Shown here: positions 1-15,875 of the stretch, piece by piece
Position numbering within the stretch: position 1 is the first letter of the stretch
Layout of the letters: each line of letters begins with the position of its first letter
IMG/VR virus record: IMGVR_UViG_3300017788_000210
Location: 1 to 21,339 of that record
Strand: one strand, 5' to 3'
From: a virus
DNA: 21,339 nt
Notes under the pieces: model-generated
The model's input: the letters and a program-made list of their open reading frames with translations, nothing else
What the model was told of the DNA's origin: nothing
Databases searched by the model: none
Made by a program: the position numbers and the translations under genes

Positions 1-357
1 ACCACTTACCATACGCTCGATAATAGCGTCTTGGATTGCAGTGTTTACACGACCGCTCAATACATCAGCTGCAGACCAGTCTGTGAAGAAATCTTTCTTA
101 CAGATTTGACGCTGAACTTGAAACTCTTCGAGAGTCAAGATGCGCTCAGTCAAAGTGATAGTACCTGTTGGTGTGAAGTCACATGTACCAGCGGCAAATG
201 TTACATCATCATTGATTTTACGTGCTACTGATTTGTAAGGCACGTTAGGCTTTAGCGTTACATACTGCATTGAAGCATTTGCTTGCAAAGCCTTCTTTAC
301 GATTTCACCAGCTAATTCACCTGCATAGGTGGTGGTGAGTGAAGTTGTTGTTGGCAT
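1..357 (-). CDS. Major capsid protein, N-terminal part (runs off the window)
   Basis: Only the first 119 codons are present; the gene continues beyond base 1. The start is ATG at 357-355 (MPTTTSLTTTYAGELAGE), preceded by an AT-rich leader and no Shine-Dalgarno. The Thr-rich opening, the YAGE motif, the 'LKPNVPYK' segment and 'LTERILTLEEFQVQRQICKKDF' style block resemble capsid proteins of Bacteroidetes phages as I remember them. Position supports this: it directly follows a scaffold-like acidic coiled-coil gene (24-base gap), and a prohead protease lies further upstream on the same strand. The identification is family resemblance plus context; the diagnostic HK97-fold core would lie outside the window. 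Another abundant virion protein is possible. Confidence 0.6.
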   Translation of the reverse strand, partial: MPTTTSLTTTYAGELAGEIVKKALQANASMQYVTLKPNVPYKSVARKINDDVTFAAGTCDFTPTGTITLTERILTLEEFQVQRQICKKDFFTDWSAADVLSGRVNTAIQDAIIERMVSG

Positions 358-1317: not shown

Positions 1318-3387
1318 CTATTTTTTGATTTGCATACGTGCCGTGTTATTTGTGCTGTCGTTATCAGGCACACCATTAACGGCTGTTATAGTCAACACGT
1401 AGTCAGTTGGCAATGGCACGGGTGGTAAGCTCACATTGTAAACGCTGCCCATTCTTACACTTTTACCAACCTCAATACGATCAGCACGATTCCAAGTACC
1501 CGTGAAGCCACCAACAAGGCCGTGGTTTACCTTTATGCTGGTAATAACCACATTGCCTTTGTTATAAAAGGTATACCATATACGCACACGGTTAGCATCC
1601 AGCCACTCGTATCTGTCAATAGTTACACTTGCATCTAATCCTTGTGCGGGTGGGTTGACTAGTGTAATGTTTAGACCTGTGCTAATGGTGTTATCATTCT
1701 CATTGGTTTCCTTAATGACCATGTTAGGGTCGATTGTAAGTGAGAATTGACACACACCCGTTTGATTGTTCGGCAATCCAAATGGTGTTGTTTTAGTCAC
1801 TACCGTTTGGCCTTTTGGTATGGTCACATCACCGGTGTAAAATATAAACTTAGTACCATCTGGACGGGTAAACGTTAGATGCACAGTTGTAGTCACATCG
1901 CTAGTATGCACCTTGTCAAGATTAACGCTATAAGTCACGTTAACGCTACTGCCTTGCACAGCCGTTGGAAGTGTTGAGATGTTACCAAATAGGTTGTATT
2001 CAGCAACAGGCACAGGCACAGGGTCACCACCGTCTAAAGTCTTGGCAATGGTCACGGCATTGAACATGCTAACTACACCATAACCTAACTCTAAACTTTT
2101 ACCATTGACATCATACACGTAGCCGCCCGTTTTACGGCATGCTTGGCGTAGCACATCCGTTACCTGCGCTTCAGTCAAGGTAGGATTGGCAAGAATAACA
2201 CTTGCCGCTACACCCGCCATAACAGGGCATGAACACGATGTACCACTGAACGCAGTATAGTTGCTATCGGCCTTATAACCTGCAGCACCTGTGCGGTCGG
2301 TAGTGGGGCATGATGTGCCGGGAGCGGCTGCAAATGTCTTTGGCCCGTAGTTACTAAACGAAGCGCGTGCATTAGATTGATTCGATGCACCAACAGCATG
2401 CACCATAGGATAGATAGCTGGAGCTTGCGTGAAGTTTGGATTGGTTTGATTACCTGAACTTGCAAAGATTGGTATGCCCTTACCGCCACGCCCTATTGTT
2501 TTAGCTTGCGTTAATGCGTTTTGAAACAGTGGATATGCATTTGGATTGCTGCCGCCCCAACTCATTGAGATAGCAAGGCAGTTAGGGTTAGCTATTGCCT
2601 TGTTAGCCGCACGTGTTACTATAGTGTCCGATGTTTGAAAGCCACCACTACTAGTTGAACCGTAACCGATGTGCAGGAATTGCACCTTTAGCTTATTGTT
2701 TCCAAGTGAGGAAACACCTATGCCGTTATCCGTTGCCGCGCATATAAGTCCGCTGCATGGTGTGCCGTGCTTTTCATACTCACTCACTGGTCTTACATCG
2801 GCAGAATCCGTAACGCAGTTCCATGATGTATCACTAATGCGGCCAACTAAATCTTCATGGTCTACATCGCATGCAATATCCAGCACAGCCACCTCACCAT
2901 ATGCAGCACCGTCTATTAAAGACCATGCTTCTGCAGCTTGTTGATTAGGTAAGTGCCATTGCCCGGTATAAGTGTAGGCATCTCCGTCCATTGCGTATGG
3001 CTGTATGTAATCAGGCTCTACACTCGTAAATAGTTTGCTATCCATTAACGCTATGTAGAACTCATTGAACGCAGCGAAGGCAGGTACTTCTACGAATAGC
3101 GTATTAGTCAAGTTAAAGACCTCAGTAACTACTATTTTTTTCTTTGCTAAATACGCACGCGCTGCGTCTAAATCAGAGGCAACAAGTATGGCAAGACCTG
3201 TAGCAATTTGGTCTAGTGATCCATCAACTTCATTTACCTGTGAAACCTTAGTATGGTCGGGAGTAACACGCTCCTTGTCTTCAAACACGATGATGTTAAA
3301 CGGCTCATGCACCGCAATGACATTAGCCTTTGTCTTGTTCTTGTTAAAGGATGCTTTATCCTTAAACTTAACGCTGTTTATTTTCAT
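1318..3387 (-). CDS. Subtilisin-like (S8) serine protease with two CARDB-like domains
   Basis: A 689-aa protein. Residues about 1-130 look like an I9-type prodomain (FVEVPAFAAFNEF, then SVEPDYIQP) with no signal peptide. The subtilase domain spans about 140-450. It has Asp170 in VAVLDIACD, His207 in KHGTPCSG, oxyanion Asn313 in ASSGNQ and Ser384 in SGTSCSCP. The usual D-[ST]-G at the catalytic Asp is D-I-A here, and the core is unusually Cys-rich. Two beta-sandwich repeats follow (about 465-580 and 590-689), each with a CARDB-like end (KETNENDNTIST; VPDNDSTNNTA). The start overlaps the stop of the XkdF-like protease by 4 bases (ATGA), so the two are translationally coupled. Subtilases are not standard head-module genes. 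It could be virion-borne, help maturation, or act on the host; the catalytic family is sure, the role is not. Confidence 0.88.
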   Translation of the reverse strand: MKINSVKFKDKASFNKNKTKANVIAVHEPFNIIVFEDKERVTPDHTKVSQVNEVDGSLDQIATGLAILVASDLDAARAYLAKKKIVVTEVFNLTNTLFVEVPAFAAFNEFYIALMDSKLFTSVEPDYIQPYAMDGDAYTYTGQWHLPNQQAAEAWSLIDGAAYGEVAVLDIACDVDHEDLVGRISDTSWNCVTDSADVRPVSEYEKHGTPCSGLICAATDNGIGVSSLGNNKLKVQFLHIGYGSTSSGGFQTSDTIVTRAANKAIANPNCLAISMSWGGSNPNAYPLFQNALTQAKTIGRGGKGIPIFASSGNQTNPNFTQAPAIYPMVHAVGASNQSNARASFSNYGPKTFAAAPGTSCPTTDRTGAAGYKADSNYTAFSGTSCSCPVMAGVAASVILANPTLTEAQVTDVLRQACRKTGGYVYDVNGKSLELGYGVVSMFNAVTIAKTLDGGDPVPVPVAEYNLFGNISTLPTAVQGSSVNVTYSVNLDKVHTSDVTTTVHLTFTRPDGTKFIFYTGDVTIPKGQTVVTKTTPFGLPNNQTGVCQFSLTIDPNMVIKETNENDNTISTGLNITLVNPPAQGLDASVTIDRYEWLDANRVRIWYTFYNKGNVVITSIKVNHGLVGGFTGTWNRADRIEVGKSVRMGSVYNVSLPPVPLPTDYVLTITAVNGVPDNDSTNNTARMQIKK

Positions 3388-4040: not shown

Positions 4041-4068
4041 AGCTGTCCAAACGTGGGCAGCTTTTTTT
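4041..4068 (+). terminator. Hairpin with plus-strand T-tract after the tape measure gene
   Basis: AGCTGTCC (4041-4048), loop AAACGT and GGGCAGCT (4055-4062) pair over 8 bp with one G-U. Seven T follow on the plus strand. Read on the minus strand, the direction of the genes, there is no U-tract after the stem, so it should terminate antisense transcription better than the tail operon. It may instead act as a 3'-end stabilising hairpin for the tape measure transcript. Confidence 0.4.
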
Positions 4069-6091
4069 ATCCTATGCGTGCAAGGTCTTCTACGTTCTCC
4101 CTTGCTTCGGCTGCACTGGCAACATCACTAGCTAACACGTATGCGCGTGGCGTAAGTTGTTCGGGTCTATCTTGCAGGAATGAAGCGGCTAATGGATTGA
4201 ATTGTGCAACACCACCTCCACCTGTATCACCACTACCTGTAGATAGTACACTTGTGTTGGTGTCATTACCGCCTGTTGCACCACCACCAAACTGCGAGTT
4301 TTTAATCTTAATGATTTGTGCCAAACCTAATGCACCTGCAATGGCAGCTTCTACGAATTGTTGACCTGTGGCAAGTTTAATAGGGTTACCACCTGCAGTC
4401 AGCGCACCTGTTACGGCTGATGCTGTTTGCACAGTTGCAGCACCAATAGCTAGTGCTTTGTCTGTTTTAAACTTCTTACGTGCATCACGTTCACCATTCT
4501 TAGTTGATGCATCGCTAAAGGCTTGAATAACTTGTATCGCACTTTGTGCGAGTTCTAGTCCTTTCTTAAAACCTGCTTGCCTTGTTGCTACTTCTTGGTC
4601 AACACCTTTTTGAATTATCGCATTTACTTCGGCTTGATTTTGTTCTGCTATTTGCTTTTGCAGTTCCGCATTGCCTTTAGCTTGTTCTCGCAGTTTAGCG
4701 TACTTAGCGTCAACTAATGCTATTTCTTTATCTTGGCCTTCCGCCATTAGTGATATCTCAAGGTCACGCGCATCTTGTTGCGCTTTTAATTGAGCATCAA
4801 AATCGGTTACTTCTGTCTTAGTCGATTCAATAGGCTTGGCTGCATCCTTACGAATTTGCTCGGTAATCTTTGCTGATTCTTCCGCTGTCTTTTTGCGTAT
4901 AGCAAGTATTTGCTCTGCTAGCTTTTGTTCAGCCGCTAATTGATCAGCTGCATTCTTTTCCCGTTGTGCTTTCTCTTTTGCATCCTGCGCGTTTAAGATT
5001 CCGTCACGCTGGTTGACTAATCCTGTCAATGTCTTTTCTGCCTCTTTAAGCGATGCTTCACCATCTTTCTTTACCTGCTCAGGATCGAATATCTTTTTTA
5101 CAATAAAGTTGTTTACGTCTTCAAAGACCGATGTAATATCTATCTTTTCTACATCTAGCCCGAGCTTATTGAGTACGGTTATCGCACCATTGACAAAGTT
5201 TTGAAAGAACTCGGCAAGTTTGCGCTGTGGAAACGTAACAAAGTCTAGAAATGTCTTTAAGTATTCAGCATTGCGCTGTGCTGCTTCCACTTGCGATTTT
5301 AGCTGTGTGCGTGCTGTTTCTACCACAACCTGTTGCTCAAGTATAGCCGTGTCAAGTGCCTTTAACTTGAGGTCGGTTATTTGTTTTTCAGTTAAGCCTT
5401 GACGCTTTAATGATTCTTCTTGCGCACCAATTGCATCTACTTGTTCCTTTGCAAGTGTGGCGCGTTCCTTTTGTGCATCTAACGCCTTTTGTTCAGCATC
5501 GGTTACACCGTCAATAAGCGATAGCAACTCATCGGCATAAACAATAGCAGCGGCAATGGCTGCACCAATTAAGAATATAGGATTAGTAAGTAATGCCTTA
5601 CCAACCGATGCAAACGCGCTACCAATGCTGCTTATACCTTTGGCAATATCACCCGGCTTGATATCGGTTATATTCTTTGCAAGTAGTTTTGCACCTTCCG
5701 CAGCACCTTCAAAGTCAAGATTAGCAATACGTCCAGTAACTAATCCAAGTGATGAACTCACACGCTCAAATGCACTACCTGCCTGTGTACCTACTGCTTC
5801 AGCTGCATCACTTATCTTATCTTTTAATTCTGAAGCAGCCTGTGCTAACTCTACATATTTTTCACTATTAGGTTCTGTGTTGGCTAACTGCACTTGTAAT
5901 TCACGCAGCTGCGCCTTCAGTGACTTACTGGAAGCAACTACTTCTTGTTCAGCCTGCGCAACATTCTCAAATGACTGCGAACTGTTGTTAATGCTAGTCG
6001 ATGTAGCATTGATTTGCGTGTTCAGTTCCTTTAGGTTCTGCTCACTTTCGGTTGTGTCAATTACGAACTGCCTAACAATTGGTTCAGCCAT
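4067..6091 (-). CDS. Tail tape measure protein
   Basis: A 674-aa, mostly helical protein. An N-terminal coiled coil (about 10-100; SEQNLKELNTQINATSTS) leads to a hydrophobic Ala/Ile-rich segment (about 165-190; PIFLIGAAIAAAIVYADELL). A long Glu/Lys/Ala/Gln coiled coil follows (about 195-520), then a second small-residue hydrophobic stretch (about 545-610; ALTAGGNPIKLATGQQFVEAAIAGALG). A Gly/Thr linker and a conserved-looking tail (TPRAYVLASDVASAAEARENVEDL) close it. Composition, length, the two hydrophobic patches and its place at the end of the tail gene run are typical of tape measures. By the usual 1.5 angstrom per residue rule it implies a tail near 100 nm. The start overlaps the stop of the small membrane-protein gene (TAATG). 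Confidence 0.85.
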   Translation of the reverse strand: MAEPIVRQFVIDTTESEQNLKELNTQINATSTSINNSSQSFENVAQAEQEVVASSKSLKAQLRELQVQLANTEPNSEKYVELAQAASELKDKISDAAEAVGTQAGSAFERVSSSLGLVTGRIANLDFEGAAEGAKLLAKNITDIKPGDIAKGISSIGSAFASVGKALLTNPIFLIGAAIAAAIVYADELLSLIDGVTDAEQKALDAQKERATLAKEQVDAIGAQEESLKRQGLTEKQITDLKLKALDTAILEQQVVVETARTQLKSQVEAAQRNAEYLKTFLDFVTFPQRKLAEFFQNFVNGAITVLNKLGLDVEKIDITSVFEDVNNFIVKKIFDPEQVKKDGEASLKEAEKTLTGLVNQRDGILNAQDAKEKAQREKNAADQLAAEQKLAEQILAIRKKTAEESAKITEQIRKDAAKPIESTKTEVTDFDAQLKAQQDARDLEISLMAEGQDKEIALVDAKYAKLREQAKGNAELQKQIAEQNQAEVNAIIQKGVDQEVATRQAGFKKGLELAQSAIQVIQAFSDASTKNGERDARKKFKTDKALAIGAATVQTASAVTGALTAGGNPIKLATGQQFVEAAIAGALGLAQIIKIKNSQFGGGATGGNDTNTSVLSTGSGDTGGGGVAQFNPLAASFLQDRPEQLTPRAYVLASDVASAAEARENVEDLARIG

Positions 6092-6265: not shown

Positions 6266-9200
6266 TTATGCAAGTTTCATTTGTTGGTATTGTATCGAAG
6301 CTGCTACTATAAAGGTATCAGGATAAGTGCCACCTGTTACAGTTACATTTATTCGATGTTCATCGGTATCGGTTGCCGTATCGATGCCAAATGCAAAGAC
6401 ATTAGTACCAATTGCTCCTATCGTGTTAAGCGTAGTAATTGCACTGGCATTAGCCATACCTCCATACTTGTCAAGTGTAAAGTGATGCAGTGATGCTTCA
6501 ACCGCTCCTAAAGTGTCTTTAATTGTAACGTTCATCAAAACGCTCCATGCAGTATCATCGGGAATCTCGATGTATTGACCTGTCACACCTTCAATGTCCA
6601 AGTCAAAGACATCCCCACTAGTAGCCACGTCAAACTTTTTCTGCAACACAAACTGCCCGAACTGCGCCCAGCCTTGATACGATGTGCCTACTATCCCCTC
6701 ACGATAGCCACCGCCTATGTGAATACCCGGAAGATTTGTGTATACGTTCTTGCCAAGTAGACTGCTGCCTTGCACATCTTTCGTTAGTGTAAGGTGTTCG
6801 CCCACGGCCAGCATGTCTTTATTGCCATTCTCAATAGTTACAGCCTCACCCGTTATGATGCTATCTGTTATCTGCGCATTGCGCACGGTAGACTTAACAA
6901 CACGCGGTGAAGGATTTGTACTACTCCCCGATGCAGGTGAGTTTGGCCTATCTCCTGTTGGAACGTTTGCCCAGCACACACCTAAGTCTTCATCCCAAGT
7001 ATAGCCATAACGCAAACAGCAATCCTGTGTTGATGCTATCGGGTCGCCATTTGCATCTTCAAAGTTCACTTCACCATTAACGCTAACCGATGCAGGTGTG
7101 CCGCTGCAGTCTTCTGATTCCTCAACTATTTTGAGCAGCTTAACCTTCGTGCTTTCATAGTTGCCCACCTTGTAATCATTAACCTCAAGTATGCGCCAAT
7201 AGCTATCTTGAATCCACACTTTATCACTAAACTTAAATGTAAGAATATCTTTAAGATCAAGCGCAAATGATGCCTCCATAATTCGTCCATCAGGCGAATA
7301 CAGCGCATTCATATAGCTGCGCCAATACTTATTGAAGAGGTTGTTGTAAGGATTAGAATAGATAAAGTGTGGCGGCACTTCAGGTGCCCAGTTCAAATCT
7401 TCATCATCTATCTCTGCATATACTTGGCTGTAATTATTTAGCACGGGTATGGCATCGTATACAACCGTATTGCCACCTTCATCGTATAGCTGTATATTCC
7501 ATGTGCCTGCTTCAAATAAACAGCGCGGCCCGGGTGCAATGAATTGCAATTGATCATTTAAGAACATCGGCATGACATAGCCATTACCATTCACTACGCC
7601 ACTTGGTGTTGATCGCGTTACGAGTTGTATGCGCTGGTCACCTATTGCAAAGTCACTCGATGCCGTGTTAGGATTGACGGTATAACCTACAGCCTCGTAA
7701 TCCCCATACACGCGCTCTGCGTTTTTATATTGCTTCGATAGCAAGTCTTCACCCGCCGTATAGGTGAATTGAAATTTACCTTTTTGCAGGTCTACTGTAC
7801 TGCTTAATACGATGTCTTTTGATGTGTCGAGCTTTGGTGTCCAGTCCAAAGTATCACCACTGCCTAGATAGCTTTGCTGTGGCACGATGTATATCTTAGA
7901 CGGGTTTGCCCTATCAGGTACGATAGCACAGTTGTGCATCTTAATTACATCCGTCACGAAGTCAATCTGCTTCATATCGGGAGAATTAAACAAGTAGTAA
8001 ATAGTCTGTCCGTAGCTAAGGTGTGCAATACTTAATTGAACTGAACTACCTGCATTAAATGTGGCCGTGCCTGTGCCTTGTTTAAATGTAAACCACTCTA
8101 TAGTATCACCCGGATTTAGGAATACTGAATGAGTAAAGTTCCAATTACTATTACCCGTAAAGAACTGCGTGTCTATTATATTGATAACTTCCGTTCCATT
8201 GCGTATAGCTTGCACAAATATGCGTGCGCTATTGCCTGTGATATTCACAAGCATGTTAAGTGTAAAGCTATAACGGCCCATAAAAGGCGCAGTGTATGTA
8301 TACGTTGCAGGATTGTAATCATTTTGATTATCGTATACTTCCGTATCAAAAGGTATATAACCATTGGTAAGAAAGTTAGTACCTATCTCTGCCAAGAATC
8401 CTAATCCACCCGTAGTATCGCTACCATGCAGATAACGGCTATTGCACCACGGCATCCAGTATGTTTCAAGTATGTTCTCCAGCGTACCTGCTGACAATTC
8501 AAATCCAGCGTCACTAATAATATTCTCAAACATCCACCACCAACTAAGTGCAGGCGTCAGGTCTGCAGGTCGCACGGGTATGCTAGGGTCTTGCAATGGG
8601 CGTGTATTAGCCTCACCATTCTCACTCCATAATTGACCACGATCTAAGATAGTCCAAATGCGTGAAGCAAGTGGTGTAGTCACATTGTTGTAACTGCATG
8701 TTTCATCTAACGTTGTTAGTGCCGTAATATCTGCGAGCTTCTTTTCACCAATGTTACGCACGAGGTCGGGTGTCTCTGCATAGAATGCTAGTTCCACCTC
8801 GTTAATGCGGTTCAGATTCTTGTACACCTTGCGCACACGCACGTAACCTGTGGCAATGGGTAGCGTGTCAACACGTATCTCTGCGGGTAGTTTGTAGTGA
8901 AAATAGTTTTCAGTCCCGGCTGTTACGTTAACATCGAACAGCGCACCTAATGCCTGTTGGTTATTGTCGCTATACGGCACACGGAACTCGCGGCTGAATG
9001 CACCCTGTGAAGTGAAGTTGTTAAGGTCTTGGAACTTCCAGTTCTGGCTTATGCTTTCGTTCTCATATAAATCTAAGTAGGCTGATGTATTTTGATATAT
9101 ATCTACCGTACCATTAGCGGAAAAGGTGTAAGGAATACAACTAGCCGTTAATTCTAAAATCATGAACGTACCATTCCACGGCGTGAAAACGCTGTACGGC

Positions 9201-9370
9201 TGTTTGACCGTACCGTATATAGCATCCACATATACTAGCTCATTACCTAGATAGGCTGTGATATCTTGAAAAACACGTATACCAAGACATCCAGCAAGAC
9301 CTGAACTTTGCGCATTTGCGGTAACAAGAAATTTACTGCCACCTACTATTAGTTGTACCTCTCCGTTCAT
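6266..9370 (-). CDS. Baseplate / tail-hub protein with C-terminal adhesin-like region
   Basis: A 1034-aa beta-rich structural protein. The N-terminal about 130 residues are compact (VQLIVGGSKFLVTANAQ). From about 95 a segment with DLYENESISQNWKFQDLNNF and SREFRVPYSDNN resembles baseplate proteins of Bacteroidetes phages. The middle (about 460-760) has hub-like blocks (DWTPKLDTSKDIVLSSTVDLQ, then FNKYWRSYMNALYSPDGRIMEASF). After about residue 770 there is a Cys-containing segment (DCCLRYGYTWDEDLGVCWANV), a Ser/Pro/Thr linker and a C-terminal beta domain (about 850-1034) that could contact the host. Position between distal tail protein and tape measure gene fits a tail-tip role. The start follows the previous stop by one base. 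The exact fold is inferred. Confidence 0.65.
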   Translation of the reverse strand: MNGEVQLIVGGSKFLVTANAQSSGLAGCLGIRVFQDITAYLGNELVYVDAIYGTVKQPYSVFTPWNGTFMILELTASCIPYTFSANGTVDIYQNTSAYLDLYENESISQNWKFQDLNNFTSQGAFSREFRVPYSDNNQQALGALFDVNVTAGTENYFHYKLPAEIRVDTLPIATGYVRVRKVYKNLNRINEVELAFYAETPDLVRNIGEKKLADITALTTLDETCSYNNVTTPLASRIWTILDRGQLWSENGEANTRPLQDPSIPVRPADLTPALSWWWMFENIISDAGFELSAGTLENILETYWMPWCNSRYLHGSDTTGGLGFLAEIGTNFLTNGYIPFDTEVYDNQNDYNPATYTYTAPFMGRYSFTLNMLVNITGNSARIFVQAIRNGTEVINIIDTQFFTGNSNWNFTHSVFLNPGDTIEWFTFKQGTGTATFNAGSSVQLSIAHLSYGQTIYYLFNSPDMKQIDFVTDVIKMHNCAIVPDRANPSKIYIVPQQSYLGSGDTLDWTPKLDTSKDIVLSSTVDLQKGKFQFTYTAGEDLLSKQYKNAERVYGDYEAVGYTVNPNTASSDFAIGDQRIQLVTRSTPSGVVNGNGYVMPMFLNDQLQFIAPGPRCLFEAGTWNIQLYDEGGNTVVYDAIPVLNNYSQVYAEIDDEDLNWAPEVPPHFIYSNPYNNLFNKYWRSYMNALYSPDGRIMEASFALDLKDILTFKFSDKVWIQDSYWRILEVNDYKVGNYESTKVKLLKIVEESEDCSGTPASVSVNGEVNFEDANGDPIASTQDCCLRYGYTWDEDLGVCWANVPTGDRPNSPASGSSTNPSPRVVKSTVRNAQITDSIITGEAVTIENGNKDMLAVGEHLTLTKDVQGSSLLGKNVYTNLPGIHIGGGYREGIVGTSYQGWAQFGQFVLQKKFDVATSGDVFDLDIEGVTGQYIEIPDDTAWSVLMNVTIKDTLGAVEASLHHFTLDKYGGMANASAITTLNTIGAIGTNVFAFGIDTATDTDEHRINVTVTGGTYPDTFIVAASIQYQQMKLA

Positions 9371-9371
9371 G

Positions 9372-10655
9372 TTATGTCCAGTATTCGTTAGCGATGCGCA
9401 TCTTTAAAGTTACGTTGTATAGCTTGCCGTCACGTGTGTTCTTTTCTACATACGATGTATCATCTATATTGACGGGTATGTTAATAGGCTTACCTGCATC
9501 TTCAGTCAACCATTCAACCTGATTGCTCACAAGTAGTGAACGCAGAAACTTAAACTCGCCCTCACTAATGTAGTCGCTGGTTATTGTTATAACCTGTTGC
9601 ACAAGGTTGCGCCTTTCCTGTAAACCTCTGTCGGTTGCATTGAACACACCCGTAGTGCCATTATATAAAACCTTGCGGAACTTCTTGCGGTCTATTTCGT
9701 CGGTGGTCTCTGACTTTTTAATGAAGTTAAAGTAGTCCCATCCACCACGACTATTGACAAAAGCCAATCGCATATTGTAATACTTGCAATCGTGCTGCCC
9801 ATATACACCTGCGTTGTAAAATATAAACGGCTCACTCTTTTGCGTTGCACCATTAAACACCGTGACAGTATAGCACCTCCAGTTGGGGAATAGTGAAGGC
9901 TTAACGGTAAGTGCTGTGTAATCATTTAGGTTGGCAGGGTAAACAGGCAAGCCCTCGATGTCATATCCATTGAGGTTAAGTGTCGCAGTAGTGGGTGCAC
10001 CTGCACTAGAATAAATAGTAATCTTGTAAGTGTCTACCGTGTTATTGGTAAGGTATGTGTCATTGCCGGGTATGGATAGCAAGCCGTAGTCTGTTTCAAA
10101 CACAGGAATCCACACCGCGTTAGCTGTTGAGCCAAAGCCCCAGGTAGATGCAAGTAAATTATTTACCATGCCCTCTACCCTATCGGACATCGGGCGGCTA
10201 CTAGTTGATGTAAGCGAATACTTAACCTTGTTAGTACCTGTCTGAACGTTTGGTTTATACGCATCGATTACTTGGAAGTAGCCATTAATTACAATCATAG
10301 CATCCCCTTCAACCTCGCTGCCCTCAGCAAGTGTTAGCACACCTGATACTATCCACCATTCACTAAGCGTAAAGCTCACGTTCAACTTGCTATTATCATC
10401 TACCGTATCATCTGTTTGGTAGTGTGCATCAGGCCCCAACACATTACGCATATCATCCACTAATGGGTTGATGTCAAAGTATAACCTATTATCGGGTGCA
10501 GCTGGTACATAAAAGCTGTATGTCTTGCCTTCAATTACCACTTCAACACCATAACGGAATCCGCTCTGTGCGGTCTCGGTACTCGTTGCAATGATCATTA
10601 GCTTTTGACCTCTTACCGCCCATGCATACGGCTGGTCACTTATTGTTATTGCCAT
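9372..10655 (-). CDS. Distal tail protein-like
   Basis: A 427-aa beta-rich protein without signal peptide (MAITISDQPYAWAVRGQKLM). Notable blocks are YSFYVPAAPDNRLYFDINPLV (about 46-66), a Cys/Tyr-rich segment CKYYNMRLAFVNSRGGWDYFNF (about 292-313) and a C-terminal half with KSETTDEIDRKKFRKVLYNG and GEFKFLRSLLVSNQVEWL. The 'RLAFVNS.GGWDYFNF' block followed by a small C-terminal beta domain is recurrent in Bacteroidetes phage tail genes as I recall them. Its place between tail completion protein and hub protein fits a distal tail (Dit-like) role. It overlaps the upstream gene by a single base (TAATG). Assignment is by context and resemblance, not by a diagnostic motif. Confidence 0.5.
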   Translation of the reverse strand: MAITISDQPYAWAVRGQKLMIIATSTETAQSGFRYGVEVVIEGKTYSFYVPAAPDNRLYFDINPLVDDMRNVLGPDAHYQTDDTVDDNSKLNVSFTLSEWWIVSGVLTLAEGSEVEGDAMIVINGYFQVIDAYKPNVQTGTNKVKYSLTSTSSRPMSDRVEGMVNNLLASTWGFGSTANAVWIPVFETDYGLLSIPGNDTYLTNNTVDTYKITIYSSAGAPTTATLNLNGYDIEGLPVYPANLNDYTALTVKPSLFPNWRCYTVTVFNGATQKSEPFIFYNAGVYGQHDCKYYNMRLAFVNSRGGWDYFNFIKKSETTDEIDRKKFRKVLYNGTTGVFNATDRGLQERRNLVQQVITITSDYISEGEFKFLRSLLVSNQVEWLTEDAGKPINIPVNIDDTSYVEKNTRDGKLYNVTLKMRIANEYWT

Positions 10656-11173
10656 TATCTTTTGTTTAACAGTAATCGTTGTTCAATGCTTTTTACGTAG
10701 CCGTCTATTAGTCTATCCTTGTATTCGTCCCATGTATCATCGATTGCTTCGCCATAGTAATTGATGCCTTGTATTCCTTTTTCACCAATACTCTTTGCAA
10801 TAGCAAACGCTGCGCTCTTTATATTGCTTTCTGTTGACTTAATAAATTCGCCTTGTCTATTGCGTAACTTTAATCGCTTAATGCGTATCCAGTCTTCAAT
10901 AGGCTTAACAGGTGGCATCTTCGCTCCCGGCTTTCTACCGAGTTCTATCACATCTGCATACTTGCCTGCCTCATCATTTGACACGGTGAAGTCAATAGTC
11001 GGCTTGTTGTATCTAAATTTTAGATTATAGTAAAGCGACTTAGACAAATGCCCAGATGCAAATCTGTTGACCGTCTTACCTCGCACCCTTCTTTTAATGC
11101 GCAGGTTAGATTGCGCACGCTCTATCACGGCAAGCGCATATTCATTCAATATGTCCTCAAATGCATTAGCCAT
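10655..11173 (-). CDS. Tail completion protein (HK97 gp10-like)
   Basis: A 172-aa basic protein. The N-terminal helix (FEDILNEYALAVIERAQSNL) is followed by SGHLSKSLYYNLKF and the signature YADVIELGRKPGAKMPPVKPIEDWIRIKRL (about 72-101). This matches the 'Y-A-x-x-I-E-x-G-x-K-P-G' plus 'P-P-V-x-x-I-x-x-W' pattern of HK97 gp10-type and related head-tail or minor tail proteins. Arg/Lys-rich surfaces fit contact with DNA or the portal side. Start and stop overlap the flanking genes by one base each (TAATG), so it is part of the co-translated tail operon. Confidence 0.65.
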   Translation of the reverse strand: MANAFEDILNEYALAVIERAQSNLRIKRRVRGKTVNRFASGHLSKSLYYNLKFRYNKPTIDFTVSNDEAGKYADVIELGRKPGAKMPPVKPIEDWIRIKRLKLRNRQGEFIKSTESNIKSAAFAIAKSIGEKGIQGINYYGEAIDDTWDEYKDRLIDGYVKSIEQRLLLNKR

Positions 11174-13146
11174 TAGGTGCGCTCAATTACAAATGACATA
11201 GACACAACAGATGCACTTGCCACAGTTGCGTTATTGATTAGCTGAATCGCTAACAAATCACCCGCTGAAACACTTAGGCTATTGGCATTATCACTCTTAG
11301 TAGGTGAAGACCCATCGGCATTTGTTACCGTTACCGTAAGTGCGCTCGATGTGGCGTTATTACGCACGGTAATCACAAGTGAACCTGTGGCACTTTGTGT
11401 ACCACTCATTTTTACATAAAAGTTTTTAATCGTGCCCGCAACAGGTACTGCAAAGTGTCGGTTAGATTCAGTCACATTGAATGTAGTAAGACCTGATATA
11501 GCGGCATAGACAGTTGCAGATAGACCAACCGTTGTAGCGTATACGTTACCATACGCTAGGCTATCCTTCTTATTGTTTAGCTGTGTTTGAATAGCCGATG
11601 TAACACCGTCCAAATATCCAAATTCAGTATCGTTCACCGTACCCGCTCCTATCTTAGTAGCATCTATTCCACTTGGTATATCGCTGGCGGCAAGGTCTGC
11701 ACCTGCCGTTACGAGTCCATCGGCATCGTATGTAATCTTCGTCTTTGTTGCGCCCGTTATCGCAGCATTGCGAGGCATCAACTCACAGGTCTCATCCGGG
11801 AAGGTGTACACACGGTCGGCTACGTTGGCCGATGTCTTTAACGTGGTTTTGTAATCATTATTATTTTTCCACTTTAGATCGCCATTCGTATCTGCCCATA
11901 GCGATGTGCTTTGACCTGTGGCCGTTGCATCCGCGTTTTGATGTTTTAAATGAAGGTGTCCCGCCCCGTTGGTTCCCTCGATATAAATAGATTTGGCGCT
12001 CAACTTGTTAGCGTCTAAATCGACGTCCTGAGTAGCACCTGTGTAGGGCACGAAACCCGAAAGCGCGGGGAATGATTGGAGCGCCCCCGTCCCGTCGATA
12101 TATTGAGCGCTCGAGCCGTTGGCCGTAACCGCCAAAGTTCCCGCCGTGGTAATAGGTGACCCGCCCACCGTGAACGCTGGGTTAAGTGGTGCGGGCATGG
12201 TTAGGGCTACGCTAGTAACCGTACCTCCTCCAGTATTAGGTTGGTTTTTCCATTCATTGGTCTGTGAAAAATATACAAGTATATCCCCATCATTAGGTGA
12301 GCTTACATACACATCGCTAAGGTCATCGAGCTGCGTAGGTATAGATGGGAACGCTTGTAATGCACCCGTGCCATCAATGTAATCATTGATAGTACCCGCG
12401 CCCGTTAAGGCTATTGTGCCAGCACCTGTGATGGGAGAACCTGTAACATTGAATGCAACAGGCGCAGTTAAGGCCACGCTCGTTACCGTGCCGCCTCCAC
12501 CACCACCACCACCACCTGTGGAGTTAATAGTTATCGTGCCGTTGCCGTTATCTACAATTGTGATGTTATTACCCTCTTCTAAGTTAAGCAAGGTCTGCAC
12601 CACGTTATTTACACCATTGGTTTGCAGCGTCACGCCATAGCCTGTGCCACTACCTCCCGAACCACCCGCACCGCCAACAGACCATACTGCAGGGATATCA
12701 CACGCGCTCCAGTCCCACGGAACTTCCAACTTAATCGTAAAGGCTACACCTGTAACCGTGTTCTTTTGCTCTTCCATGAATGGCTCAAATACCACATCAT
12801 TGATAAGCTGCACATCAAAGCCAAATAGCTGCAATCCATTCTTTACTTCAGCTACCAAGTCTTGCCCTAATCGTATGCAGTCGCTAATGACTTCACGTTG
12901 ATATTCTGCCTTGTATTCCTTATCACGTGGGATGTCGGCAAACATGATATGAAAGCCGAACTGCATGCCACCTTGCACGGGTTCAATCGTATCCGGTGTA
13001 ACGTGCATAAAAGGATATTGATCGTCCTGCAGTTGGTCGGCAAGGTCAATCTGTCCGTGCGTGAATCGCTTAATCAAAAAGTGACCCGCAGCAAATGCCT
13101 CAAGTCTATTGATAAGTACGTTATAGCTGTAGTTGTAGCTAGTCAT
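11173..13146 (-). CDS. Tail-terminator-like domain fused to a phage fibre
   Basis: A 657-aa two-part protein. Residues 1-about 152 look like a tail terminator/neck protein (INRLEAFAAGHFLIKRFTHG; YPFMHVTPDTIEP; FGFHIMFADIPRDKEYKAEY; REVISDCIRLGQDLVAEV). A Gly/Ser linker (about 156-170) and nine consecutive Gly (211-219) lead to two fibre repeats. These begin GTVTSVALT near 219 and 308, and each is followed by a YIDGTGALQ(A/S)FP block. Next comes GFVPYTGATQDVDL, a shaft with HLHLKHQNADATATGQ and NVADRVYTFP, and a C-terminal beta-sandwich (about 540-657). Fibres of this style are common in Bacteroidetes phages, but usually not attached to a terminator. The start is the ATG that overlaps the stop of the chaperone frameshift extension (TAATG). 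No frameshift is needed to join the parts. Confidence 0.7.
   Translation of the reverse strand: MTSYNYSYNVLINRLEAFAAGHFLIKRFTHGQIDLADQLQDDQYPFMHVTPDTIEPVQGGMQFGFHIMFADIPRDKEYKAEYQREVISDCIRLGQDLVAEVKNGLQLFGFDVQLINDVVFEPFMEEQKNTVTGVAFTIKLEVPWDWSACDIPAVWSVGGAGGSGGSGTGYGVTLQTNGVNNVVQTLLNLEEGNNITIVDNGNGTITINSTGGGGGGGGGTVTSVALTAPVAFNVTGSPITGAGTIALTGAGTINDYIDGTGALQAFPSIPTQLDDLSDVYVSSPNDGDILVYFSQTNEWKNQPNTGGGTVTSVALTMPAPLNPAFTVGGSPITTAGTLAVTANGSSAQYIDGTGALQSFPALSGFVPYTGATQDVDLDANKLSAKSIYIEGTNGAGHLHLKHQNADATATGQSTSLWADTNGDLKWKNNNDYKTTLKTSANVADRVYTFPDETCELMPRNAAITGATKTKITYDADGLVTAGADLAASDIPSGIDATKIGAGTVNDTEFGYLDGVTSAIQTQLNNKKDSLAYGNVYATTVGLSATVYAAISGLTTFNVTESNRHFAVPVAGTIKNFYVKMSGTQSATGSLVITVRNNATSSALTVTVTNADGSSPTKSDNANSLSVSAGDLLAIQLINNATVASASVVSMSFVIERT
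12490..12516 (-). repeat. Poly-glycine codon run (9 Gly) in the fibre linker
   Basis: Six GGT codons preceded on the genomic plus strand by GGA, GGC and GGC codons give nine consecutive glycines between the globular N-terminus and the fibre repeats. This short triplet repeat could vary in copy number by slippage, changing linker length without shifting frame. Confidence 0.7.
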
Positions 13147-13909
13147 TATCTATTGCGTTTTTTCATTTCTACTTTTTGCACGTACACATAGTCGGCTAGA
13201 TATGTCAAGTGCGTAAATACCTCCATCGCTCCCCGCTCTGTTACTGCATCAAACTTCGTTATGTCCCGTTCCGCTAGTGACTCGATGATGTGGAACCAAC
13301 CATATACGGCTAGGCCGTCTGGTGTTCCTGCGTCATCTCCCTCACTATCTCCGTTATCTCCTTTGCCAAATATTCTAGGGAACTGTTGTATAGTTCTATT
13401 TCTAAAGTCGAAAAAAAAAGCAGTACATTCAGTACATGGTCAAGCGTTAGCTGCAACACTTCGCTCTCATACTTTCGTTTGGCGTTAGGGTGGTAAGGCT
13501 CGATGTCGTAGTATTTGCCGAACTTAGCCTTGACAGGGCGGTATAGTATGCACATCATTTTAAACGCAGCTTCACCGTTTATCTTGCCGTCTTTGTAGAT
13601 GCTGCCGCAGTGCGTGTCTAAGTCGATGTATTCACCGAACGTTAGCTCGTTAAGGTTAGGTACAAAGCCTAACTCTATTGCACCTATTCGCACCTTGCGT
13701 TCAAAGTCGCTGCCGCCTAACTTTATCGCAGCCTCAAAGCGCATAATGATTTCATCTATCACATGCGACTGTAGCTGTCTAATGCTTTCGCTAGACTTAC
13801 CCGTTATGATATGCACCTGTTCAACCTTATCGACTGCGTTTTGATAGTCGATGTACTTGCCAAGTGTCACACCCTTTGCGTTAGCTGCTATGCTGAACTT
13901 GAGTTTCAT
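13146..13909 (-). CDS. Tail assembly chaperone, -1 frameshift (long) product
   Basis: Reading frame 0 from 13909 to 13412 (166 codons), then -1 from 13412 to the TAA at 13148-13146, gives 254 residues. The extension has 88 residues. It starts FDFRNRTIQQ, has an acidic Gly/Asp linker (GDNGDSEGDDAG), a helical part (YGWFHIIESLAERDITKFDAV and FTHLTYLADYVYV) and a basic end (KKRNR). The extension has no start codon of its own. It is open for its full length, and its stop overlaps the next gene's ATG exactly like other junctions in this operon. The layout matches the lambda G/GT chaperone pair: a short form and a longer frameshifted form needed for tail tube polymerisation round the tape measure. 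The frameshift is inferred from sequence. Confidence 0.75.
13310..13909 (-). CDS. Tail assembly chaperone, short (zero-frame) product
   Basis: A 199-aa protein starting MKLKFSIAANAKGVTLGKYI. It contains the blocks LTFGEYIDLDTHCGS (about 89-103) and MMCILYRPVKAKFGKYYDIEPY (about 118-139). 'FGEYIDLD' followed by a 'vLYRPv' helix is a recurrent pattern in tail-region proteins of Bacteroidetes phages. The last 33 codons (after the slippery T-run) overlap the extension read in the -1 frame. It lies between TerS and the tail-terminator gene, 34 bases after the TerS stop. Role: binds tape measure and tail tube subunits during assembly; inferred from family resemblance and the frameshift arrangement. 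Confidence 0.6.
   Translation of the reverse strand: MKLKFSIAANAKGVTLGKYIDYQNAVDKVEQVHIITGKSSESIRQLQSHVIDEIIMRFEAAIKLGGSDFERKVRIGAIELGFVPNLNELTFGEYIDLDTHCGSIYKDGKINGEAAFKMMCILYRPVKAKFGKYYDIEPYHPNAKRKYESEVLQLTLDHVLNVLLFFSTLEIELYNSSLEYLAKEITEIVREMTQEHQTA
13411..13420 (-). other. Slippery sequence for -1 programmed frameshift
   Basis: On the minus strand C followed by nine T is read CTT TTT TTT TCG in frame 0; the heptamer T-TTT-TTT allows perfect re-pairing of both tRNAs after a -1 slip. A small stem (GAACT/AGTTC, bases 13396-13380) lies about 15 bases downstream and could be a weak stimulator. Confidence 0.7.
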
Positions 13910-15031: not shown

Positions 15032-15481
15032 TTATGGTTTATCTATTTTGCCTAGTTGTCTTCTAAATTCCGTTATTAGATCACGTATGCATGAAGCGCA
15101 TCCGCTTGGGCGTTCGTGCTTCTTTGTTATCTTGCTATACCAATAGTAAAGCATTTGCAAATCTTCCTGTTGTATCTTGTTTGCTTTGCTTACGCGCTGA
15201 ATGAAACTATCCAGTGCAGCTATTTCTTCTTCTTTCATGTCCTGTGCAAACCACTTACGCGCGGGGCATGATGCAAAACGAAACTTTGTCTTTACATCCA
15301 TGAAGCAACCGCACAGCTTTATCTTTTCCTTATAGTAGGTAACATCATTTTCTTCAGGATTGACGTTGTTACCGATTATTGGTGTGCCGCATGTGCCGAA
15401 TGTAGTGTTGTAGAACTTACATTTTTTGCATGTGTTCAATCTCTCGCGTTGAATGTGCAAGGGCACGTTGAAGTTTAACAT
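15032..15481 (-). CDS. Cysteine-rich, probable zinc-binding protein
   Basis: A 149-aa protein. Cysteines are grouped as CKKC (18-21), CGTP (31), CGCF (57-59), CPARKW (72) and CASC (about 127-130). The first four groups suggest a zinc-ribbon or double zinc-knuckle in the first 80 residues. The C-terminal half is helical (EEEIAALDSFIQRVSKANKI). The start (MLNFNVPLHIQRERLNTCKKC) overlaps the end of the sigma-like gene by 65 bases in another frame. The 'H-I-Q-R-E-R-L-x-x-C-x-x-C' opening argues that this start is right. It is probably regulatory or DNA-associated, co-transcribed with the sigma-like gene; the function is not known. Confidence 0.65.
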   Translation of the reverse strand: MLNFNVPLHIQRERLNTCKKCKFYNTTFGTCGTPIIGNNVNPEENDVTYYKEKIKLCGCFMDVKTKFRFASCPARKWFAQDMKEEEIAALDSFIQRVSKANKIQQEDLQMLYYWYSKITKKHERPSGCASCIRDLITEFRRQLGKIDKP

Positions 15482-15875
15482 ATTCTCTTATTCGTTTTAA
15501 TGCTCTATGTATAGCTGTGCGCAAGTAGCTGTATGGTATACCTGTTTCAGCACTTAGTTCTTTGTAGTCGAAGTCGGGTTTACTGTATAGACGCAACAGG
15601 ATTGCATCAAATTCGTTTAGCCGCCCGATTGCATTGTATAGATACTCACCGTCTATGAATGCACCTATCCATGTTTCATCTTGTTTAGTGTCTTCAACCT
15701 GCCTTTCTACGTGAAGCTCGTAGTATTTGCGATACTTTATAGCGTAGTCACTGCGTGCACTGTGCCAGCTAAGCCAAATGGCTCTGTTAATGTATGCTTC
15801 TACCTTGCCCCGGCACACTATATCTTCAACATCTTGATTTGGCCTATCCATTAAACGTGCTAAGACCTCATGCAA
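15417..15875 (-). CDS. Sigma-factor-like regulator, first gene of the late operon
   Basis: At least 152 residues. The C-terminal part (about 100-140; FDYKELSAETGIPYSYLRTA, then IHRALKRIREYVK) is a region-4-like helix-turn-helix. The N-terminal part (EAYINRAIWLSWHSARSDYA) resembles sigma region 2. The first usable start is TTG at 15875. The same frame stays open to 15974 and encodes residues that continue the homology (KHYNAWLDKASRLAHDKQ, then GSDLLHEVL), so the real start probably lies upstream at a non-ATG codon. Being the first gene of the minus-strand operon, it is a good candidate for directing late transcription. Alternatives are an ECF-like or DNA-binding regulator without polymerase contact. 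Confidence 0.6.
   Translation of the reverse strand: MHEVLARLMDRPNQDVEDIVCRGKVEAYINRAIWLSWHSARSDYAIKYRKYYELHVERQVEDTKQDETWIGAFIDGEYLYNAIGRLNEFDAILLRLYSKPDFDYKELSAETGIPYSYLRTAIHRALKRIREYVKLQRALAHSTREIEHMQKM

Follow-up and report, generated by a model that had tools for sequence, protein, structure and literature searches.

A conserved run of nine or ten T in a putative tail chaperone gene pair of Bacteroidota phages: two-product recoding and a possible role for transcriptional slippage

Does a run of nine T in a viral gene mark the point at which two proteins part, and, if so, which machine changes the frame? The question is raised by a stretch of viral DNA of 21,339 nucleotides (IMG/VR record IMGVR_UViG_3300017788_000210; the whole stretch is referred to as the window), for which an earlier note had proposed a programmed -1 frameshift in a tail chaperone gene. 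Read directly, the minus strand gives GTA CTG CTT TTT TTT TCG, with a run of exactly nine T, a length that no other A/T run in the 21.3-kb window reaches; CTT TTT TTT TCG, the frame-0 reading given in the note, forms codons 164-167 of a 199-aa ORF (G in Table 1). Past the slip point, the -1 frame is open for 88 codons (TTC GAC ... AGA) and stops at a TAA (13148-13146) that shares one base with the ATG of the next gene (13146-13144; TAATG). The predicted products are G, of 199 aa, and GT, of 254 aa, with 166 residues common to both. In the -1 frame the preceding stop stands 6 codons before the run, and no ATG, GTG or TTG intervenes; the first ATG lies 65 codons downstream, within the conserved T domain. 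Between 13146 and 13309 there is no minus-strand ORF of at least 50 aa, and mechanical plus-strand ORFs overlap the interval. Thus the start-less extension ending in a TAATG overlap and the interval left empty by ordinary ORF calling, both described in the note, are found as stated.

Table 1. Features of the putative chaperone locus and its tail-module neighbours in the window
Feature	Position	Strand	Basis or remark
G, frame-0 ORF, 199 aa; residues 1-166 in both products	13310..13909	-	ORF, relatives, AF2 model
T9 slip run: frame-0 heptamer T_TTT_TTT flanked by a single T on each side	13411..13419	-	Sequence, conservation
Stretch coding in two frames: end of G in frame 0 (33 codons past the shared part), beginning of T	13310..13410	-	Codon-position diversity
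T, -1-frame extension, 88 codons; GT predicted at 254 aa	13146..13418	-	Open frame, diversity shift
Next gene; ATG overlaps the T stop (TAATG)	11173..13146	-	N-terminal 149 aa weakly similar to P12024S_41
phrog_29822 gene	10655..11173	-	P12024S family member also matches 'tail completion or Neck1'
Tape measure-like gene	4067..6091	-	phrog_24676, E 5e-7

The arrangement is conserved in every relative in which the site can be seen. A first set of 228 loci, obtained by scanning IMG/VR and GTDB contigs and including the window and two cultured phages, shows the site in 226 (T9 in 215, T10 in 11; 195 distinct genes). Two further scans added 80 loci each, the best 80 of 586 to 595 confirmed stretches, and all of these are T9 or T10; two of the scans behind the first set were likewise limited to the best 80. 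One scan used the peptide pattern FFYHLGND, which itself lies on the slip site (63 loci), and the other patterns avoid the run. Some contigs were fetched twice, and distinct counts are therefore stated; excluded before counting were L147 (which shares the contig of L073), L230 and L233 (sharing those of L148 and L149), L234, L240 and L252-L254 (copies of second-subfamily loci) and L232 (which has T9). Altogether, 400 rows show the site, 313 of them distinct as judged by 60 bases on either side of the run: 327 have T9 and 73 have T10, with neither shorter nor longer runs. In all 400, T10 loci included, the downstream domain lies in the -1 frame relative to G. The heptamer T_TTT_TTT stands in frame 0 in 386/386 rows of the main family (c1 and c2 both TTT) and in 14 rows of a second subfamily. 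The presence of both the run and the open -1 frame in every site-showing relative is more than chance would give.

The second subfamily is distant and was found in Bacteroidota prophages and chromosomes by whole-genome profile searches, which yielded 1 new genome in 395 for one order and 0 new in 395 for the phylum; with the new protein as query, 6 of 296 genomes in one family were found. It is present in IMG/VR too. Here the T9 sits one codon position later (GCT or GGT followed by TTT TTT TTG), and the T domain is again in the -1 frame. Two loci of the first set lack a visible site, L064 being truncated and L063 carrying a deletion. The run is lost with the deleted stretch of L063 (2475-3137), so that G and T share a single 220-aa frame; this is either a natural variant or an assembly error. 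On another virus contig (that of L207; 47,685 bases) the G profile matches twice, and either two genes or two joined genomes may be present.

Codon-position diversity indicates that both frames are used. The test covered the loci of commonest layout, 29 of the window type and 27 of the type of locus L102. In the window type, the part that codes for G only has mean diversities of.193/.133/.435 at frame-0 positions 1/2/3. In the overlap, the values are.055/.110/.102 and no position is free, while in the part that codes for T only they are.082/.431/.118, the free position being the third base of the -1 frame. This shift of the free position from the third base of frame 0 to that of the -1 frame is what a change of frame in translation would give and shows that the -1 frame is translated, and the constraint on both frames in the overlap indicates that both products are used. 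In the L102 type, where the G tail spans nearly all of T, the overlap has.006/.039/.025 as against.084/.060/.235 upstream. Since the G tail is constrained past the run, the gene has two selected C-termini rather than one product and a by-product.

T could instead be a separate gene with its own start, and the second gene of the pair in the Nonlabens phage P12024S, P12024S_39, is annotated so. However, between the upstream stop and the run, no in-frame ATG for T occurs in 59/59 lineages (ATG, GTG or TTG in 3/59); the first ATG of T lies mostly at least 58 codons inside T or is absent, and the conserved domain starts at the run. An independent T gene is, accordingly, very improbable. Even less credit attaches to the idea that the run truly has ten T and joins G and T in one frame, or that its length varies by phase variation of the DNA. 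In-frame joining can occur, as L063 and the Unahavirus phages (see below) show, but independent assemblies in their hundreds agree with cultured phages and with prophages in chromosomes in keeping the -1 relation, T10 loci are also -1, and both frame 0 and the -1 frame are constrained in the overlap. In-frame fusion and sequencing error were dropped on these grounds. The earlier note had named two observations that would speak against the frameshift, a true run of ten T giving a simple in-frame fusion and stops in the -1 frame of relatives; the L063 deletion is the sole in-frame exception, and no relative has an early -1 stop. The programmed -1 reading is thus strongly supported by the conserved run, the -1 domain, the codon-position signature and the lack of an independent start, and two-product recoding at the T-run is, on this comparative reading of sequences, almost certain.

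What the two products do is suggested by their layout and their neighbours. One start, two predicted products and a longer form reached through the -1 frame, as in lambda G/GT, follow here from the frames, their conservation and the codon signature. The pair lies on the same strand and in the same module as a tape measure-like gene, with about 7 kb and four genes between, and the order in P12024S is similar: in both phages the pair is followed by the phrog_29822 gene and, further down, by a match to a tape measure family. The tape measure-like genes of the window and P12024S do not align with each other (E 0.09). The layout, together with the tail-completion-like and tape-measure-like genes behind it, makes the name tail chaperone likely. 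In a G/GT-type tail assembly chaperone pair, which we consider highly probable from the two-product layout and gene context, G would coat the tape measure protein, and GT, as the minority product, would recruit the tail tube protein.

Sequence and structure searches bear on the name to a smaller degree. Neither G nor T has a named match in Pfam, PHROGs or NCBIfam, and G matches phrog_32199 (8e-13), a family of unknown function. Tail assembly chaperone families are very divergent. Residues 1-166 of G give a confident AF2 model (pLDDT 90.8). The T domain is helical, with a conserved block KWGWYQSIY.LA.GD in its consensus; its model is middling (pLDDT 70.7), and its one BFVD match below 0.001 is nameless. 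A PDB sequence search returned zero matches for G and two chance-level rows for T, and Foldseek against the PDB gave G no match below E 0.001. The HK97 tail assembly chaperone (2ob9_B) matches G weakly (Foldseek E 3.1; VIA Z 2.9, rmsd 3.7, 61 residues); two of 192 re-aligned PDB chains have Z of at least 2, and this chaperone is among the matches listed. The G/GT layout of the earlier note was reproduced, and its chaperone name stands as likely, with a weak fold match and no curated family behind it. The pair may instead encode another tail or neck assembly factor, a reading compatible with either mechanism of slippage and in keeping with the missing family name, the distance from the tape measure gene and the weak fold match. 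We regard this as unlikely in view of the two-product layout with its -1 extension, the tail-module position in two distant phages and the identity, as a tail assembly chaperone, of a PDB chain with Z of at least 2 among the matches listed.

The second part of the question is which machine slips. Tail chaperone frameshifting is textbook ribosomal recoding in phages, and the chaperone frameshifts studied to date are, to our knowledge, all ribosomal. In the present family, two descriptions fit the same letters: an A/T run at least about nine long where the frame changes, as in programmed transcriptional slippage (9 or 10 T in 400/400 rows), and an X XXY YYZ heptamer in frame 0, as in ribosomal -1 frameshifting (386/386 plus 14 rows). 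Because a T9 always contains the ribosomal heptamer, the two mechanisms are inseparable by sequence alone. In the transcriptional case, the host RNA polymerase would slip on the nine or ten T and add one U to the mRNA, and ordinary translation of the lengthened mRNA would yield GT. According to two published accounts, bacterial polymerases slip at about nine A or T (PMC5009743, PMC1088944). Were the mRNA to lose one base instead, 193 of 195 distinct genes would reach a stop within the next two or three codons, and one more after one codon, so that such a loss would merely shorten G.

Three observations favour the polymerase. First, run length is bounded on both sides (9-10) in two subfamilies that differ in codon phase and flanking residues. 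Counted before and after the core heptamer, the Ts number (1,1) in 248 distinct sites, (1,2) in 43, (2,1) in 12, (0,2) in 8 and (0,3) in 2; no combination yielding a run of 8 occurs among them, and variants of 7 or 8 T are absent from all 400 rows. Second, the last T of the core, a base that is free in known ribosomal sites, is invariant even where T to C would be silent in both frames (196/196 rows, 60 lineages). The change is doubly silent in front of a TAT or TAC codon, and its outcome would be UUUUUUC, the site proposed for SPP1. The chance of such invariance is about 6e-8 if the base is assumed free (TTC makes up 24% of Phe codons elsewhere) and the 60 lineages are treated as independent, which they are not. 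Third, pseudoknot-free folding of 59 lineages revealed no downstream RNA stimulator: the mean z is 0.08 for +5..55 and -0.05 for +5..75, with 1/59 and 0/59 lineages below -2, nothing beyond controls. The stretch -25..0 has a mean z of -0.57, with 7/59 below -2, and three control stretches range from -0.46 to 0.23. Downstream RNA structure is common at -1 ribosomal sites, though not required, and lambda-type frameshift sites are not known to require an RNA stimulator.

Several points temper this preference. The outer Ts sit on hydrophobic codons of one or other frame and need no additional rule; for this reason their conservation was rejected as sole proof of a nine-T rule. U in the last place of the heptamer may be a better ribosomal slipper than C. 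The usual pattern has few independent exceptions, namely the second subfamily, the L324 group and the T10 groups. A -1 ribosomal frameshift on U UUU UUU, in the style of the lambda and SPP1 chaperones and with the outer Ts as a by-product of residues needed in two frames, is consequently a possible explanation, if a somewhat doubtful one, to which the frame-0 T_TTT_TTT of all 386 main-family rows tested also lends itself; SPP1 gp17.5* is proposed to use UUUUUUC (PMC6316719). Weighing these points, we hold slippage at the level of transcription, by the host RNA polymerase, to be the rather more probable course. Upstream of its late genes, the window encodes a sigma-factor-like protein (15417-15875, minus strand; phrog_1740, E 2.9e-6), which would fit late transcription by the host enzyme.

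A wider reading, to which we give a probability of roughly 0.55, is that transcriptional slippage sets the ratio of the two tail chaperones throughout a large clade made up of phages and prophages of Bacteroidota, with run length held by selection on both sides and two selected C-terminal domains. If true, dependence on nine or ten T would mean that a second machine has arrived at the same two-product ratio. The family provides natural variants, hundreds of them, in which to study how selection controls homopolymer length, a clear example of long two-frame coding, and a likely name for a widespread pair of 'hypothetical' genes whose second product is seen to be split off or lost in annotation.

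As with lambda gpG/gpGT, there are one start and two predicted proteins, the longer by a -1 change, and the genes belong to the tail module and come before a tape measure gene (PMC5009743). Unlike in lambda, a T9/T10 run replaces the slip site, the frame-0 tail is longer and selected, and the pair does not directly precede the tape measure gene; no sequence kinship is seen. SPP1 gp17.5/gp17.5*, for which a UUUUUUC chaperone site, putatively ribosomal, has been described before, is similar in its U-run and its long frame-0 tail (173 aa, 112 shared; PMC6316719), but the site there is a seven-base heptamer proposed to be ribosomal, whereas here nine or ten T occur without exception. Thermus dnaX and Shigella type III genes share the run of nine A or T at the frame change (PMC5009743 and PMC1088944); they are not tail genes, and polymerase slippage is experimental there and inferred here. 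In the titles and abstracts of the literature searched, there is no report of transcriptional slippage for a phage tail chaperone, nor of any frameshift in the present family; PMC6095929 refers briefly to slippage in the case of a tape measure protein of a prophage.

Among cultured phages, the closest comparison is with Nonlabens phages P12024S and P12024L, whose protein is about 28% identical to that of the window, the match stopping at the run. Their genes 38-39 have the same G, T9 and -1 domain, but are entered in the records as hypothetical proteins 38 and 39, each on its own. In Unahavirus, a related G domain occurs in a 293-aa ORF (hhalign P 2.9e-5; L241:9900-10930, L242, L243); in contrast to the present family, the ORF is single and uninterrupted, and its C-terminal part has no detectable kinship to T. 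Flavobacterium phage 6H has a two-base difference before a T6 and an annotated ORF that stops at 191 aa; it was rejected as an example of a different slip site because the region is a single open frame in its relatives 2A and FPSV-F7.

The gene that follows T is one 657-aa ORF in which a P12024S_41-like N-terminal part is fused to glycine-rich, fibre-like repeats. A 1034-aa structural-type protein (6266-9370, minus strand) carries a C1q-like domain (PF00386, E 3e-7), and a subtilase-family protein (1318-3387, minus strand; PF00082, E 1.3e-31) adjoins the head protease gene in the structural operon.
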